Notes under the pieces: model-generated | What the model saw: the letters and a program-made list of their open reading frames with translations, nothing else | Databases searched by the model: none | What the model was told of the DNA's origin: nothing | Translations under genes and position numbers: made by a program | Shown: piece after piece, positions 6,608-46,748 of the stretch | Position numbering within the stretch: the stretch's first letter is position 1 | How the letters are laid out: each line of letters starts with the position of its first letter | Assembly (NCBI RefSeq): GCF_020829495.1 | Contig: NZ_JAIVFQ010000011.1 | Span: 62,001-126,000 of the forward strand | DNA from: Nostoc favosum CHAB5714 | GTDB lineage: Bacteria > Cyanobacteriota > Cyanobacteriia > Cyanobacteriales > Nostocaceae | Direction of reading: 5' to 3' | Length of the DNA: 64,000 nt

Positions 6608-7594
6608 TTAACTATCCTGGGAACTGGTAGATGTATCAATCGGCTCTAAGCTTTCTACCATTTGAGATTGACCCCTTTCTCGCCACCAAGTAAGGAGAGT
6701 ACTGGCGATGAAAATACTTGAATAAGCTCCCATCGTGAAGCCAATAATCAAAGCTAGAGCGAAATATCTCAGTGTTTCTCCGCCAAATAGAAAGATAGCA
6801 GATAATGTTAGCAACACGGTTAAGGTCGTGTTGATTGATCTTGTCAAAGTTTGGTTAACCGCATCATCTACAATTTCGGCAATTGGGCGTTCAGGATTGA
6901 TTTTAATGGTTTCCCGAATGCGATCGTAAATCACCACTGTGTCGTTGACTGAGAAACCTGTGATGGTAAGTAAGGCGACAATAAAAAGGCTATCTACTTC
7001 GATACCCGCCACCAAACCCAAAATTGAAAAAGCCCCTACCGTGATCAAAATATCGTGCAATAGGGCAACGATCGCAAACACGGCATAATCTAACTGGAAG
7101 CGGAAGCTCATATAGATAGTAATACCGATGAAGGAAACTATCAGAGCTAATATCCCAGACCTCAACAGTTCTTTTCCCAAAGTAGGGCCAACGGAGTCAA
7201 TTTGGTTTTTTTGCGGATCAAAAGCACCAATTTGTTGGCTTAAAGTATTTTGCAAGTTGGTGCGCTGATCGACACTTAAATCTTTTGACCGAATTAATAC
7301 ACCATTTTCTGCCCCATTTTCGGAGATAAGTTGGATGCTACTATCACCTAGCCCCTGCGCTTTAGCTACTTCCCGGACAGCGTTGATATCAATTGGTTTG
7401 TCGCAATTGCCTGGTTTGGTGCAATCTCGGACAAACTGCAACCGTGTACCACCGATAAAATCTAAACCGGGGCGTAAGGGTGCGTGAATATTGGGTTGTT
7501 GCCAAGAAATCACCATTGAGATGATACCGGCGAGAATAATCGCAGCAGAAATAGCCCACCAAAGCGATCGCGATTTGTTTATACTCAGTTTCAT
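6608..7594 (-). CDS. secF: Protein translocase subunit SecF
   Basis: SecF with SecD uses the proton gradient to complete export of proteins through SecYEG. The 328-residue protein has an N-terminal membrane helix, a periplasmic domain containing the family marks [13 protein letters not shown] and VGPTLGKEL, and five further membrane helices at the C-terminus (from about 145), including [15 protein letters not shown] and [18 protein letters not shown]. The start ATG overlaps the secD stop by 4 bases, showing translational coupling. Confidence 0.97.
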
Positions 7595-9024
7595 CGAGCC
7601 ACCTCTGCCTTATTCGATGCTGGCAGGTTTGGACAGAAAAGTTCTGTCTTCCGCAAAGAGGGAATTGAAATTGCCAAAAACAGCAATGTCCGACTACAGG
7701 TAATTGCGCTAAACATACTCACACCCACTCCCAAAGCTAAGGTCAGTGCAAAGCCTTTGACTAAACCAGACCCCAGCCAAAACAGGGCAGCACAAGCAAT
7801 CCATGTAGTGACATTGCTATCTAAAATACTAGAAAATGCTCGGTAAAAACCAGATTCCACAGAACGATATAGGGATTTACCAGCCCGCAATTCTTCCCGC
7901 GTCCGTTCAAAAATTAGCACGTTGGCATCAACCGCCATCCCAATACTGAGGATAAAACCTGCAATTCCCGGCAAAGTTAGGGTGACACCCAATAAAGCAA
8001 AGGTTGACCAAGTTAAGAGGGAGTAGATCACTAGTGACACATCCGCAATCAGTCCTGGTAATCGATAATAAAACACCATGAATATTAATACTAAAGTTAG
8101 ACCACCAACCCCAGCATAAATACTGCTTTGAATACTATCTTTACCCAAAGTTGCCCCTACTGTCCGCCTTTCTGCAATTTCTACTGGTACGGGTAATGCA
8201 CCACCACGTAGCTGCACGCCTAAATCATTGGCTTGTTGTGCGGTAAACCGTCCTGTAATTATGGCAGAGCCACCACTAATACCTGCGGCGGCAAATTCTA
8301 TACCCACGGTAGGAGCGCTGATCAGTTCATTGTCCAGAAAAACACCAATGCTACGCCCAGTACCGGCAAGATTTTTTGTCAAATTGGCAAACAGTTGACC
8401 ACCCTGTTGGTCGAAGCGAATGGCAACATGCCAGTTATTACCTTGACTGGGTTCACCATAGGCATCCTTGAGGTATTTCCCAATTAGCGGTGGATTGGTG
8501 CTTTCAAACAATTCTGCGATCGCTTGATTATTTGAAAGCAAATCTTCTTGATTCTTGACAATTGCTGCTTTGTCAGTACTCTTTCTCAACTCTTCTTGCT
8601 TGCCTTTCAATTCGGCTCTAGATGCTTGGAAAGCAAGCAGTTGGGTTTCTGTATTCGGCTTTTGGGTGCGAAATTCTAACTGCGCCGTACCGCCTAGCAC
8701 CCGTTCGGCTTGCTCTGGGTCATTAACTCCTGGTAGTTGCACCAGTATTTTATCTGCGCCGACTGTTTGGATCAATGGCTCAGAAACACCCAGACCATTA
8801 ATCCGACCTTCGACAACTTTCTTTACACCTTCCAATTCTCGTTCGGTGATTTGGGGAATATCGGCTGATGGTTTCACCTGAATTGTGAGCTGTGAGCCTC
8901 CGCGCAAGTCCAGCCCAAGAGGTATCGGAATTGTAGCAATCACCGTAATAGCGGCGATTATCAGGACTAAAATCAAAATTAATAGCGATCGCTGTCTTTG
9001 CATACCATAACTCGCAACTGACAA
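7591..9024 (-). CDS. secD: Protein translocase subunit SecD
   Basis: Partner of SecF in the export motor. The 477-residue protein has the N-terminal helix, the [16 protein letters not shown] motif, a large periplasmic region with [25 protein letters not shown]-type sequence and six C-terminal membrane helices with the family motifs GAT(L)GKDSI and [17 protein letters not shown]. The natural start could be Met8 (9003), since the [10 protein letters not shown] sequence fits the usual N-terminus. The C-terminus is extended by about 30 residues beyond the last helix. It lies downstream of pdhB across a repeat-filled spacer of about 220 bases. Confidence 0.97.
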
Positions 9025-40740: not shown

Positions 40741-40886
40741 CTTCGTACAATTCTTTCCTAGAAGACGGTGTTGCTTGATTTTGCGGCTGTTGATTGACTT
40801 TCTGCTGAGTTTTTCTCTTGTCACTGCTGCTGTTTTTACTAGAATAGAATTTGCAGGGTGCTATCGGGTTTTGGCAGGATTGGGAA

Positions 40887-41717
40887 ATGATGCTGACAGA
40901 AAAATTTGAGCAATTAAGAGCTTTATTTCAAGAAATGGAGCAGGCGTTGATTGCCTACTCTGGGGGCGTTGATAGTACTTTGGTTGCCAAAATTGCTTAT
41001 GATGCGTTGGGCGATCGCGCTTTGGCTGTAACAGCTGTTTCTCCTTCGCTGTTACCAGAAGAGTTGGAAGATGCTAAAATTCAAGCTGCAACTATTGGGA
41101 TTGGGCATAAAATCGTCCAGACTCACGAGATGGAAAATCCCAATTACACTTCTAACCCTGTTAATCGCTGTTATTTTTGCAAAAGTGAATTGCACGATAC
41201 TCTCAAACCTTTAGCTTTAGAGTTGGGTTATCCCTATGTGGTAGATGGGGTAAATGCCGATGATTTGCATGATTATCGCCCAGGAATTCAGGCGGCGAAA
41301 GAGAGAGGGGCGCGATCGCCTTTAGCAGAAGTGGGTGTCACTAAAGTTGAAGTTCGGCAACTTTCGCAACAACTCGGTTTACCTTGGTGGGATAAACCTG
41401 CTCAACCTTGCCTCAGTTCGCGGTTTCCTTATGGTGAAGAGATTACTGTAGCTAAGTTACAACGAGTTGGTAGAGCAGAAATTTTCTTAAGAAAGCTAGG
41501 TTGGCAGAATTTGCGCGTGCGATCAGAAGTAGATACAGCACGCATTGAATTGGCATCAGAACAAATTAAAGAGTTTGTGTTAACTACGGATTTACAGAAA
41601 GTAGTTTTTGCATTTCAGGATTTCGGATTTCTTTACGTAACCCTGGATTTAGAAGGTTATCGCAGTGGTAAGTTGAATCAGGTTTTGAATCGGGAAGTCT
41701 TGGGCGTTAAACTATAG
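40887..41717 (+). CDS. larE: LarE-like ATP-dependent sacrificial sulfur transferase
   Basis: I start at ATG 40887 or 40890 (MLTEKFEQLRALF); the open frame extends upstream from a TTG. The 276-residue protein has the PP-loop IAYSGGVDSTLVAK (ATP pyrophosphatase), the LarE mark NRCYFCKSELHDTL, VVDGVNADDLHDYRPG, and PCLSSRFPYGEEI. LarE activates a pyridinium ring and gives up a cysteine sulfur for nickel-pincer cofactor synthesis in LarA systems; no larA, larB or larC is in the window, so the substrate here is open. Its end overlaps the convergent radical SAM gene by 11 bases. Confidence 0.85.
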   Translation: MMLTEKFEQLRALFQEMEQALIAYSGGVDSTLVAKIAYDALGDRALAVTAVSPSLLPEELEDAKIQAATIGIGHKIVQTHEMENPNYTSNPVNRCYFCKSELHDTLKPLALELGYPYVVDGVNADDLHDYRPGIQAAKERGARSPLAEVGVTKVEVRQLSQQLGLPWWDKPAQPCLSSRFPYGEEITVAKLQRVGRAEIFLRKLGWQNLRVRSEVDTARIELASEQIKEFVLTTDLQKVVFAFQDFGFLYVTLDLEGYRSGKLNQVLNREVLGVKL

Positions 41718-42771
41718 CATTTTCCTGGACTGTAGACACGGTTGTGCTTTTTTCACCTGCCTCACTTGTTTTTGCCAACTGCATCAGTGTCTCATACCAA
41801 TCCGTAATCGGTAGATGGGCAGGTGCTGTTAGCTCTTGATAAACCTGTTGGCAGAGTTCTCGAAAAGCCCGGTAGCGCTCTTGACGCCAATGCTTAGTGA
41901 GTTCGCTCAGAGATGCCTCATTAAGATTCCCTAGAGCATAATTGCGGTCAAAACCATGTTGCATTGGCACAACTGTCCCATCTGCTTCGATAATTAGGGG
42001 CGATATGAGTTCAGCAAAGCTGTAGTCTTCTTGATTTATTAACGATTCTTCTGCAAAAAAGCTACCGGGATTTGAACGCAGTAAATCTTGGTGAGTTAAA
42101 TCAATCTGAACAAACAGCTTGTCACCAAGGGCTTCTCGCAGACGCGTGGCTTTTAGGTAAGCATAGGATAAGATGCTGGGATTAGGTCTATATCCGACGA
42201 GGCTTTGGGTAGCATGTCCAACTTCCGCAAGTGGATGAATCTGCAATAATTTCGCCCTTTGCTCTAAGGCGAAGTTCGCAACCCAGTCTAACTCCCGGAA
42301 ATTTTGTTTTGTGAGTGTAAAAATAAACCCGAATGGGATACCAGATTGGCGAACCCCTTCGAGTCGAGCCGCCATTTTTTCAAAAGCTTGCTCTGAAGAA
42401 CGCATACGGTTATGAGAGGCTGGCATTCCATCAAGACTAATGGCAAGTAGATCAACCGCTCCAGTCAGCTGCTCTAAATGTCGCTCGTCCAAGAGTATGC
42501 CGTTGGAAGTAACCGTCGTATGCATCTGGCATTGATGAGCCTGTTTTAGCAGTTCGGGCAAAGGTTTGTAGACAAGAGGTTCTCCTCCTGAAAAGCTGGC
42601 AATGGTATATCCTTGTACACTTGCATCCGTAATTGCTTGTAAAAGGAGCGGGACACTGAGTTGGTCACGCTCCTCTGGGCTGGAAGAAGAGTAACAATGG
42701 AGACAGCGCAGATTGCACCGTCTGGACGGGTGGATTTGCAGAATGCGGTTAAAGTTTCCAGTAGATACCAT
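41707..42771 (-). CDS. Radical SAM enzyme, probable RiPP maturase with degenerate SPASM
   Basis: From ATG 42771 the 354-residue protein has the radical SAM cluster motif CNLRCLHC (Cys19, 23, 26) after RILQIHPSRR, SFSGGEPLVYKPLPEL (binding of SAM, GGEP), and AISLDGMPASHNRMR. The C-terminal region has the SPASM-like form LIIEADGTVVPMQHGFDRNYALGNLN, but the expected cysteine after P is Met and only one cysteine (in FRELCQQ) follows, so the auxiliary cluster is probably lost. Such enzymes modify peptides. The only peptide gene nearby is the precursor 128 bases upstream on the same strand. Overlaps larE by 11 bases. Confidence 0.85.
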   Translation of the reverse strand: MVSTGNFNRILQIHPSRRCNLRCLHCYSSSSPEERDQLSVPLLLQAITDASVQGYTIASFSGGEPLVYKPLPELLKQAHQCQMHTTVTSNGILLDERHLEQLTGAVDLLAISLDGMPASHNRMRSSEQAFEKMAARLEGVRQSGIPFGFIFTLTKQNFRELDWVANFALEQRAKLLQIHPLAEVGHATQSLVGYRPNPSILSYAYLKATRLREALGDKLFVQIDLTHQDLLRSNPGSFFAEESLINQEDYSFAELISPLIIEADGTVVPMQHGFDRNYALGNLNEASLSELTKHWRQERYRAFRELCQQVYQELTAPAHLPITDWYETLMQLAKTSEAGEKSTTVSTVQENAIV

Positions 42772-42922
42772 ATGCTTACTAATTACTAACTCCAATTACT
42801 CTTTCTGATCTAAAATTTTATGAAGCTTTGCAATGGTTAAGGGAAGGGTTAAAGGGTAACGATAAAAAGGAAAATTCCATCGCCACCCCTCTTCCCAAAC
42901 TTCTGGAAAAAGTCTTAGAATT

Positions 42923-43195
42923 TCAACCCTGCTTAGAGATATCTTTAGAGATATCTAGCCTGTTAGGATTGAAGGCGGGAATCCCATTAGGAAAAGGCTT
43001 AACAGGGATTAGAGGGGTATCTAGCTCCTTGATATCGGGGATGTCAAAGGCGGGAATCCCATTAGGAAGAGGATCATTGCCTCGTGGGAAACTGAATCCC
43101 CCTTTCACCTGTTCTAGTTCTTGTATTTCTTCTGGGGTTAGATCCATAAACAATTCGTCGCCTTGAATGTCTTGCCCTTCCAGACGGTTTTCCAT
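42923..43195 (-). CDS. Probable RiPP precursor peptide with duplicated core
   Basis: ATG 43195 follows a strong Shine-Dalgarno (AAGGAGA, about 43204-43210 on the complement), so the protein is 90 residues. The leader is acidic and helical, with DLTPEEIQELEQVKGG ending in Gly32-Gly33, the usual cleavage mark. The remainder contains the heptad PNGIPAF twice (44-50 and 69-75), in contexts PRGNDPLPNGIPAF and VKPFPNGIPAFN, followed by a DISKDISK-type end. Two repeats of one core motif behind a GG leader and beside a radical SAM gene is the picture of a modified peptide precursor. No transporter or peptidase gene is seen nearby. Confidence 0.75.
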   Translation of the reverse strand: MENRLEGQDIQGDELFMDLTPEEIQELEQVKGGFSFPRGNDPLPNGIPAFDIPDIKELDTPLIPVKPFPNGIPAFNPNRLDISKDISKQG

Positions 43196-43432
43196 GATAT
43201 TCTCCTTCGTTTTTACACTAAGTGCATAGGCATAGCCCATCGTAGACATCGCTAATTTCTGTGAGCGATCTGCACACATTTAATTTCATTCCCCTCAGAG
43301 GAACTTACGCAAATTTACTATTGAAATCACAAATATTTATATTTACAGACACTATTTGGCAGCCTGTCTACGCAATTTTCTAACTTATGGTGATGCGATC
43401 GCCCCAAACGTCGGCGTTGGCGTAGCGATCGC

Positions 43433-44500
43433 TCAATTTCCACGTTGAGTCAGCTTGTATTCTATCTGCTGTAGTGCTGATCGCCACACATCATAACCCT
43501 CTTGAGACAGGTGCAACCCATCTGTGGTCAACTCTGGGCGCAAATTACCTTCCATATCCGTAAACCAGCTATAAATATTTAGATAATTAGCGCCTTCTTG
43601 TTTGGCAATCTGCGTTAGTTGTGTGTTGATGTGACGAATACGGCTATTGGAAAGTTTTGCTAGGCGAGTAGGCAAAATTGATTGGACAATGATTTGAGCT
43701 TGTGGGTGAGTCTGCCGTAAACGACGGACAATTCGGCGATAATTACGCAAAATTGTTTGATCGCTATCGCCTTTTCGTAAGTCGTTAATCCCAGCCATGA
43801 CGTAAATGACATCCGGCCGGGTTGCCGAAAATGCCCCCAATCTTTTTAAAACGCCACTAGAAGTATCTCCAGATATGCCTTGATTCAGCCACAATTTACC
43901 AGCAGGTAGTTTTTCTCTAGGAAACCACATGCTCAAAGAATCGCCAACTAAGATACTTAGATGATTTGCACCTTGACCTTGAGCGATCGCTCTAGCTTCT
44001 AAAGCTAGTAAACTTTTCCAGTCGTCATAAGTTAATTGACGCTTCTTGATCGACTCCCACAATGATTGCAAATTATCACTATTTACGCGTGTATAAATCT
44101 GACCTGTTTTTAGAGCTGCCAATCTTTGGTAATAAAGTTGATTCCCAGATGTCAGTGAAAGACCAGTTGATTGGGCGCTGGGGTTGAGTGATGACTCTGT
44201 TGGGGCTGGTAATCCCTGACTACTGACTTCTGCTAAGGAGAGATCAACGCTGTTGATCTTTCTATCACCTGCTGTTGGCTGCGAACTTTTTAGGGGTTGG
44301 AACGCTTGGCTGCTGAGTTCTGGTAAGGAAAGATCAACACTGGGGATGATTTGTCTACTTACTATTGTCTGCGAACCTTGTTTTAAATCCCACAGGAATC
44401 TAGAATTTTCTGGCAGGACAATCGACAAATGTGGAAGAGCCGATGCTGGTATTGCTAATCCTGTTAACAAGCCTGCTGCCAACAGATAAGGGTCCCTCAT
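43433..44500 (-). CDS. Secreted SGNH/GDSL hydrolase
   Basis: The 355-residue protein has an N-terminal signal sequence (MRDPYLLAAGLLTGLAIPAS), a long Ser/Gln-rich linker (about 25-155) that contains a duplicated SLPELSSQ segment, then an SGNH hydrolase domain. Catalytic blocks are SILVGDSLSMWF (Ser of block I), GISGDTSSGV (Gly block II), VMAGINDLRKG (Asn block III) and TTDGLHLSQEGY (Asp/His block V). Such enzymes hydrolyse acyl esters on sugars, lipids or cell-wall material. No start-codon doubt (ATG 44500). Confidence 0.9.
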   Translation of the reverse strand: MRDPYLLAAGLLTGLAIPASALPHLSIVLPENSRFLWDLKQGSQTIVSRQIIPSVDLSLPELSSQAFQPLKSSQPTAGDRKINSVDLSLAEVSSQGLPAPTESSLNPSAQSTGLSLTSGNQLYYQRLAALKTGQIYTRVNSDNLQSLWESIKKRQLTYDDWKSLLALEARAIAQGQGANHLSILVGDSLSMWFPREKLPAGKLWLNQGISGDTSSGVLKRLGAFSATRPDVIYVMAGINDLRKGDSDQTILRNYRRIVRRLRQTHPQAQIIVQSILPTRLAKLSNSRIRHINTQLTQIAKQEGANYLNIYSWFTDMEGNLRPELTTDGLHLSQEGYDVWRSALQQIEYKLTQRGN

Positions 44501-45691: not shown

Positions 45692-46321
<630 letters not shown>

Positions 46322-46400
46322 TTATAATTAAGTTTAATTTTAGGTGATACCTACGGCGGTAAACTACGCGGTTTTCAGTAGCTTGATAATAGACTTGAAA

Positions 46401-46748
46401 TTATGTCAGTTTCAAAGCTTGAAGCATTACTGTATTCAACTGCTGTACTTGATTTGCTCCTAATTTACCTATCCTTCTAGTGATTAGTCTACGCTCTATG
46501 GTAGTTATTCGAGTCACCCTAACTTTAGAAGCAACCCGTAATCCAGTACTAGTAAAATCTGGATCTGAAGGTTCTAAAATGAACTCTTCTGGACTCAAAC
46601 TACTTATATTTTGAGATGAAATAAAACATAAAGTGACATCATCGCCTATAGTATCTATCCATAAAACTAAACCAGGGCGTAGCTTTGTTCCACTCAAGTC
46701 TGTAAATGGAAATGGAACCAAGACGATATCACCTTTTTGGAGAGACAT
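46401..46748 (-). CDS. MazF/PemK-family mRNA interferase
   Basis: The 115-residue protein begins MSLQKGDIVLVPFPFTDLSG with the beta-barrel start of MazF/PemK toxins; RPGLVLWID, SKVRVTRITTIERRLITRRIGKL and ANQVQQLN follow the family pattern. Such enzymes cut mRNA or tRNA at short sequences. The ATG overlaps the antitoxin stop by one base (TAATG). This is the only locus of the two clusters with an unbroken toxin. Confidence 0.9.
   Translation of the reverse strand: MSLQKGDIVLVPFPFTDLSGTKLRPGLVLWIDTIGDDVTLCFISSQNISSLSPEEFILEPSDPDFTSTGLRVASKVRVTRITTIERRLITRRIGKLGANQVQQLNTVMLQALKLT

Follow-up and report, generated by a model that had tools for sequence, protein, structure and literature searches.

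A cyanobacterial radical SAM enzyme paired with a double-glycine leader precursor peptide, and a tentative case for epimerisation

A radical SAM enzyme gene of Nostoc favosum CHAB5714 and the small peptide gene immediately upstream of it almost certainly constitute a RiPP module. That the pairing is real and beyond chance is supported since it was found in 13 genomes, the enzyme is under purifying selection and the motif G[IV][PVL] is dense in nine of the 13 core peptides. For the reaction that the enzyme performs, we lean tentatively, with somewhat less than even confidence, towards L-to-D epimerisation of an Ile or Val in the core. A largely open-access literature search, with queries other than the motif letters, found no description of the pair, and neither did Pfam and NCBIfam scans of the window proteins and of some of the relatives. 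Throughout, the window is the whole stretch of 64,000 nucleotides that was analysed, and coordinates refer to it (Table 1).

Table 1. Positions in the window of the pair, its sequence elements and its flanking genes.
Feature	Position	Strand	Evidence or remark
larE	40851-41717	+	TIGR00268, 320.5 bits
Radical SAM enzyme, degenerate SPASM-like C-terminus	41707..42795	-	Radical_SAM 80.6 bits, SPASM 24.5 bits (weak)
Precursor peptide gene, 90 aa	42923..43195	-	ATG start; 12 further genomes have a homologue adjoining the enzyme
Second core motif PFPNGIPAF, residues 67-75	42971..42997	-	Candidate modification site; sequence and motif conservation
First core motif PLPNGIPAF, residues 42-50	43046..43072	-	Candidate modification site; sequence and motif conservation
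Ribosome-binding site GAAGGAGAA of the precursor	43200..43208	-	Predicted from sequence
GDSL lipase gene	43433-44500	-	Pfam

The window precursor consists of a 33-aa double-glycine leader and a 57-aa core. The original prediction had described a 90-residue peptide upstream of the radical SAM gene, on the same strand and with its own ribosome-binding site, and this is present as claimed, the site reading GAAGGAGAA; the leader end DLTPEEIQELEQVKGG, the two copies of PNGIPAF in the core and the enzyme motifs CNLRCLHC and VPMQHGF also read exactly as given there. A longer ORF of 118 aa exists at the precursor, in which an in-frame upstream stretch adds 28 codons. No Pfam or NCBIfam family matched the window precursor at E≤1, and no NCBIfam match was obtained for the precursors of two relatives, G728 and G766 (our genome labels). 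A Pfam search with the G728, G766 and G016 precursors returned a single match, that of G728 to Bacteriocin_IIc, which lies below the cut-off (16.9 of 27.1 bits). The yield of a promoter and terminator scan was not above that from shuffled sequence. The enzyme ORF has 362 codons counted from a TTG; the ATG at window position 42771, corresponding to M9, appears the likelier start because M9 is present in every row of an 11-row enzyme alignment. The best 25 of its 85 NCBIfam matches were all below cut-off (top score 95.8 of 650).

We searched for the enzyme in 59 genomes comprising its own and relatives (6 matched), 217 genomes of the family (10 matched), 386 of the phylum (3 matched), 29 of the order of G492 (1 matched) and 388 order genomes (5 matched). 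The sets overlap and the limits vary from 1e-20 to 1e-50. In the large searches only the best first-look candidates were scored per genome (at most 5 for phylum and order, at most 9 for the family), and absences are therefore not proof. Across all searches the enzyme was present in 14 distinct cyanobacterial genomes (G000, which is its own, G025, G177, G004, G164, G013, G028, G101, G016, G162, G492, G728, G752 and G766), being split across two contigs in G028. As expected of the radical SAM RiPP pair that had been predicted, a precursor with a GG leader lies upstream of the enzyme, beside it, in 13 of these 14 genomes; none was seen in G752, where 384 bases separate the start of the enzyme from the end of a contig. 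The pair is kept together in at least five different neighbourhoods. In a search of the phylum with a family profile, the matches drop from 2.9e-179 to 9.2e-25, the latter spanning positions 15-181 only, and the enzyme therefore stands apart as a clade of its own in the phylum sample. One scan of a viral collection returned no relatives.

A precursor profile run against the 217 family genomes matched 18 of them at E≤0.05. Strong matches (2.6e-16 or better) came from 11 genomes, namely the 10 that carry the enzyme and G015, and weak matches (E 0.006-0.044) from seven other family genomes; G162 has a second match, which is weak. As a candidate for a precursor living free of the enzyme, G015 was rejected: its ORF follows the precursor to about residue 61 and then continues in frame with enzyme residues 320-362 and, judged by this composition, is the remnant of a deletion that joined the precursor to the tail of the enzyme. 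The co-occurrence check suggested with the original prediction thus came out in its favour, strong precursor matches in the family occurring only together with the enzyme (10 genomes) or as the G015 remnant. With dN/dS values of 0.13-0.29 over 21 pairs, the enzyme is under purifying selection. The corresponding values for the precursor are noisy (leader 0.07-1.44; core 0.42-1.27 where defined). A tree of the 14 enzymes is poorly resolved, with one of its 11 inner branches starred and one branch very long.

The pair sits between larE and the GDSL lipase gene in the window, with larE and the enzyme gene sharing 11 bases at their ends. We surveyed this site in 30 Nostoc larE loci out of 53 genomes, all 53 of which have larE. 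At 23 of the 30 loci, 74-531 bases separate larE from the GDSL gene and neither enzyme nor precursor is matched; the other seven comprise four with both genes, one with a cut enzyme, one with the remnant and one with larE alone. Because both genes are absent together from the 23 gaps, enzyme and precursor look like a unit that was gained or lost as one. Five larE-GDSL gaps were read, and three of these (L083, L098 and L099) hold an ORF of 120 aa, the one tested being DUF4864 (3.4e-44); in these pair-less gaps the ORF occupies the place of the pair, as if one had replaced the other. The stretch at window 43220-43253, which precedes the precursor in frame, is met again in many larE-GDSL gaps and is presumably an interspersed Nostoc repeat. 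By eye, the G101 pair likewise adjoins larE, and in G492, G016/G162, G728 and G766 the pair has other surroundings. Farther along the window, at 45843-46748, are small ORFs that resemble, by eye, a MazF/PemK-type toxin gene and a DUF5615/DUF433 pair.

GG closes each of the 13 leaders. A published consensus for double-glycine leaders includes ELx3E[IL]x2[IV]xGG (PMC3140520), which the G016 leader, ELTPEELENVKGG, fits and the window leader fits less exactly. The original prediction had reported no exporter gene next to the pair, and none adjoins it in the window, where the flanking genes are larE and the GDSL lipase gene; the same genome has five C39 matches above cut-off, in trans to the pair. 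Three relatives have a C39-peptidase exporter near the pair, G016, G728 and, by eye, G162. The G016 pair is accompanied by two other GG peptides, together with an HlyD-like protein and a C39 ABC exporter, and the ORFs near the G162 pair are near-identical to those of G016. The two extra GG-leader peptides (L037:9700-10189 and L038:9219-9708) follow the enzyme and precede the C39 exporter, and those of L037 matched no NCBIfam model at E≤0.01. The C39 exporter of G728 lies with an HlyD-type protein within 7 kb of the pair on the other strand, and a gene for a Nif11-class maturase (TIGR04103, 826.9 bits, above cut-off) and two more GG peptides are also near.

The invariant part of the core is G-[I/V], which is found in 13 of 13 cores, in 1 to 5 copies per core and 25 in total, and the prevailing motif is phi-P-x-G-[I/V]-P. 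Over the 25 motifs, x before the Gly is N in nine, V in five, Y in four, I in four and L, H or M once each, and G-[I/V] is followed by P (19), V (5) or L (1). Three residues before the Gly stand F (12), L (5), I (4) or P (4). P-x-G-[I/V] is present in 11 of the 13 cores, the exceptions being those of the near-identical G016 and G162. The G728 core contains PVGIPVGVPV and PVGIPVGIPVGILVP, and its precursor (L148:8063-8332) carries a tandem P-V-G-[I/V] array and could be an iterative substrate. In comparison with shuffled cores, G[IV][PVL] is denser (p<0.02) in nine of the 13, and the four single-copy cores give p values of 0.06-0.24; the motif was picked after the cores had been viewed and the cores are related to each other. 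These data do not bear out PNGIPAF as the invariant part. Nor do they favour the Phe cross-link that had been proposed for the core ends: 'AF' occurs in two cores, those of G000 and G025, which are identical, its place elsewhere being taken by AL, AI, AD, SD, YP, VN and others, and the enzyme lacks the auxiliary-cluster cysteine set.

The alignment of enzyme cysteines has 15 rows, 14 of them cyanobacterial (one cut by a contig end) and one from Mycolicibacterium. Invariant are the radical SAM triad C27, C31 and C34 and a single further cysteine, C315, which is kept in all 14 rows that reach its column, the Mycolicibacterium row among them. At positions where Cys follows 'P' or 'G' in many SPASM relatives, the cyanobacterial rows carry M, V or L. 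The earlier reading of a SPASM-like C-terminus from which the expected cysteines have mostly gone is supported. Since C315 is the sole invariant Cys beyond the triad, a second Cys-ligated (auxiliary) cluster is not expected from the alignment. C315 may itself be a remnant SPASM cysteine. AlphaFold gave a weak model of the enzyme (mean pLDDT 61.3, pTM 0.59).

We favour epimerisation because the cysteine pattern of the enzyme matches that of the proteusin epimerases and because Ile/Val is invariant in the core. Proteusin epimerases are described as holding the radical SAM cluster only, PoyD homologues as having a single strictly conserved cysteine, Cys372, that is the proposed H-atom donor, and EpeE as using Cys223 and holding two clusters; Val and Ile are among the residues epimerised (PMC8326336). 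The enzyme here likewise has one strictly conserved Cys, C315, in addition to the triad. In the proposed mechanism, this single-cluster enzyme would generate a 5'-deoxyadenosyl radical and act on the neighbouring peptide. The radical would remove one hydrogen from the motif, the alpha-H of its invariant Ile/Val being the likeliest candidate. C315 would then give a hydrogen back from the opposite face to leave D-Ile or D-Val, the overall reaction being a redox-neutral epimerisation, and a C39-peptidase ABC exporter would cut the leader after Gly-Gly and export the core. The tight motif fits this proposal poorly because the known epimerases are described as promiscuous (PMC8326336), and it also counts against epimerisation at Ile/Val that the Gly is equally invariant and that F occupies position -3 in 11 of 13 cores. 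No RRE was found among the five Pfam matches of the enzyme, and such domains may escape family models. The wider proposition is somewhat more doubtful: the enzyme would be a third, independently evolved radical SAM peptide epimerase, a former SPASM maturase that has no auxiliary clusters, uses one Cys as H donor and flips Ile/Val at phi-P-x-G-[I/V]-P, sometimes repeatedly, in a peptide exported by way of a double-glycine leader.

Among the other reactions considered, chemistry at the invariant Gly or at a peptide bond, such as alpha-functionalisation, cleavage or a tyramine-type excision as in spliceotides, is unlikely, even with a Gly as invariant as I/V (13 of 13 cores). The splicease motif is XYG, which suits only the four of 13 cores that have Y-G, and a spliceotide was rejected for want of this trait; moreover, a partner gene common to the neighbourhoods was not seen by eye. 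Tyramine excision itself is known in a spliceotide (PMC8326336). We give a low probability to a cyclophane of the triceptide type at F-P-x, in which the Phe three before the Gly would be linked to the side chain at i+2 (F-P-N, F-P-Y or F-P-H). At least one motif with this Phe is present in 11 of the 13 cores and the second motif of the window has exactly F-P-N, a Phe-to-Asn i/i+2 link being known in XncB and OscB, but L, I or P stands there in 13 of the 25 motifs, including three of five in G728 and the first in the window, x is variable, and the enzyme lacks the SPASM cysteines whereas the descriptions of XncB, OscB and MscB include SPASM (PMC11002830). With one invariant Cys beyond the triad, the auxiliary-cluster cysteines of triceptide enzymes were looked for and not found. 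Side-chain chemistry on the invariant Ile/Val, such as desaturation or the formation of a cyclopropane of the kind that TvgB makes, is similarly improbable. A beta-branched residue is invariant in the cores, and TvgB modifies the Val of TVGG repeats, but it is reported to bind two clusters or more and its reaction removes 2 Da (PMC9062424), and the conserved cysteines of the present enzyme are too few for a second Cys-ligated cluster; TVGG is in none of the 13 cores and a TvgB-type cyclopropylglycine peptide was accordingly rejected. A sactipeptide or ranthipeptide thioether was rejected as well, a Cys donor being present in 0 of 13 cores. The cores and the cysteine pattern thus made four readings less likely, namely a cyclophane at the core end, a thioether, splicease action and a cyclopropane. 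That enzyme and peptide are mere neighbours, the substrate being something else, is very improbable given that the two stay together in at least five neighbourhoods and are both missing from 23 larE-GDSL gaps, even though the enzyme has two other GG peptides next to it in G016/G162.

If epimerisation is the correct reading, the mass of the peptide would be unchanged, and the loss of 2 Da per core that was originally suggested as a test would miss the reaction. The pair would then form a compact system of two genes, with an enzyme that has lost the SPASM clusters and is still a peptide maturase. It would also offer a direct test of whether auxiliary clusters separate oxidative cross-linking from redox-neutral epimerisation, and the short motif, together with the repeat-bearing G728 precursor, would make it an attractive means of introducing D-residues at chosen positions.

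The best solved relative by sequence is SkfB (6efn), a SPASM RiPP maturase (4.7e-19, positions 16-229), which is also the top match by fold, the model being weak. Sactipeptide maturases link Cys; unlike SkfB-type maturases, the system described here has neither a core Cys nor the auxiliary-cluster cysteines. The triceptide enzymes XncB, OscB and MscB have in common with it a radical SAM protein and a motif-bearing precursor, and F-P-x is present in 11 of 13 cores, but the aromatic residue at i is missing from some motifs and the SPASM cysteines are absent here. A more distant actinobacterial relative is the radical SAM protein WP_155921908.1 (L035:7929-9068) of the Mycolicibacterium plasmid pCBMA213_1, with 30% identity by BLAST over about 311 columns, in which the LC..Y motif and the degenerate C-terminus recur. 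The protein of 118 aa encoded just upstream of it (7542-7898) could be a substrate and is unlike a short GG-leader peptide. Plasmid matches in Actinomyces, Nocardia and Indioceanicola (among 61 records) were set aside, having many C-terminal cysteines.

Closest in proposed chemistry are the epimerases. Proteusin leaders are nitrile-hydratase-like, and the window precursor matched no proteusin-type model. Compared by description, the proteusin epimerases PoyD, PlpD, OspD and AvpD, several of them cyanobacterial, resemble the present enzyme in one conserved extra Cys and, in line with the site proposed here, have Val and Ile among their targets; they are described as holding the radical SAM cluster only, as the cysteine pattern leads one to expect of the present enzyme, and as having a C-terminal RRE, of which none was matched here (PMC8326336). 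The short conserved core motif is a further difference from them. EpeE/YydG resembles the proposed system in its radical SAM core, a precursor with a cleaved leader, Val/Ile targets and a critical Cys, but its sequence similarity to the enzyme was confined to the radical SAM core (profile positions 7-104) and it has two clusters, unlike the single one expected here (PMC8326336). Because neither a proteusin leader nor an RRE was found and EpeE holds two clusters, the enzyme would act like an epimerase yet appears to belong to neither the proteusin nor the epipeptide family.
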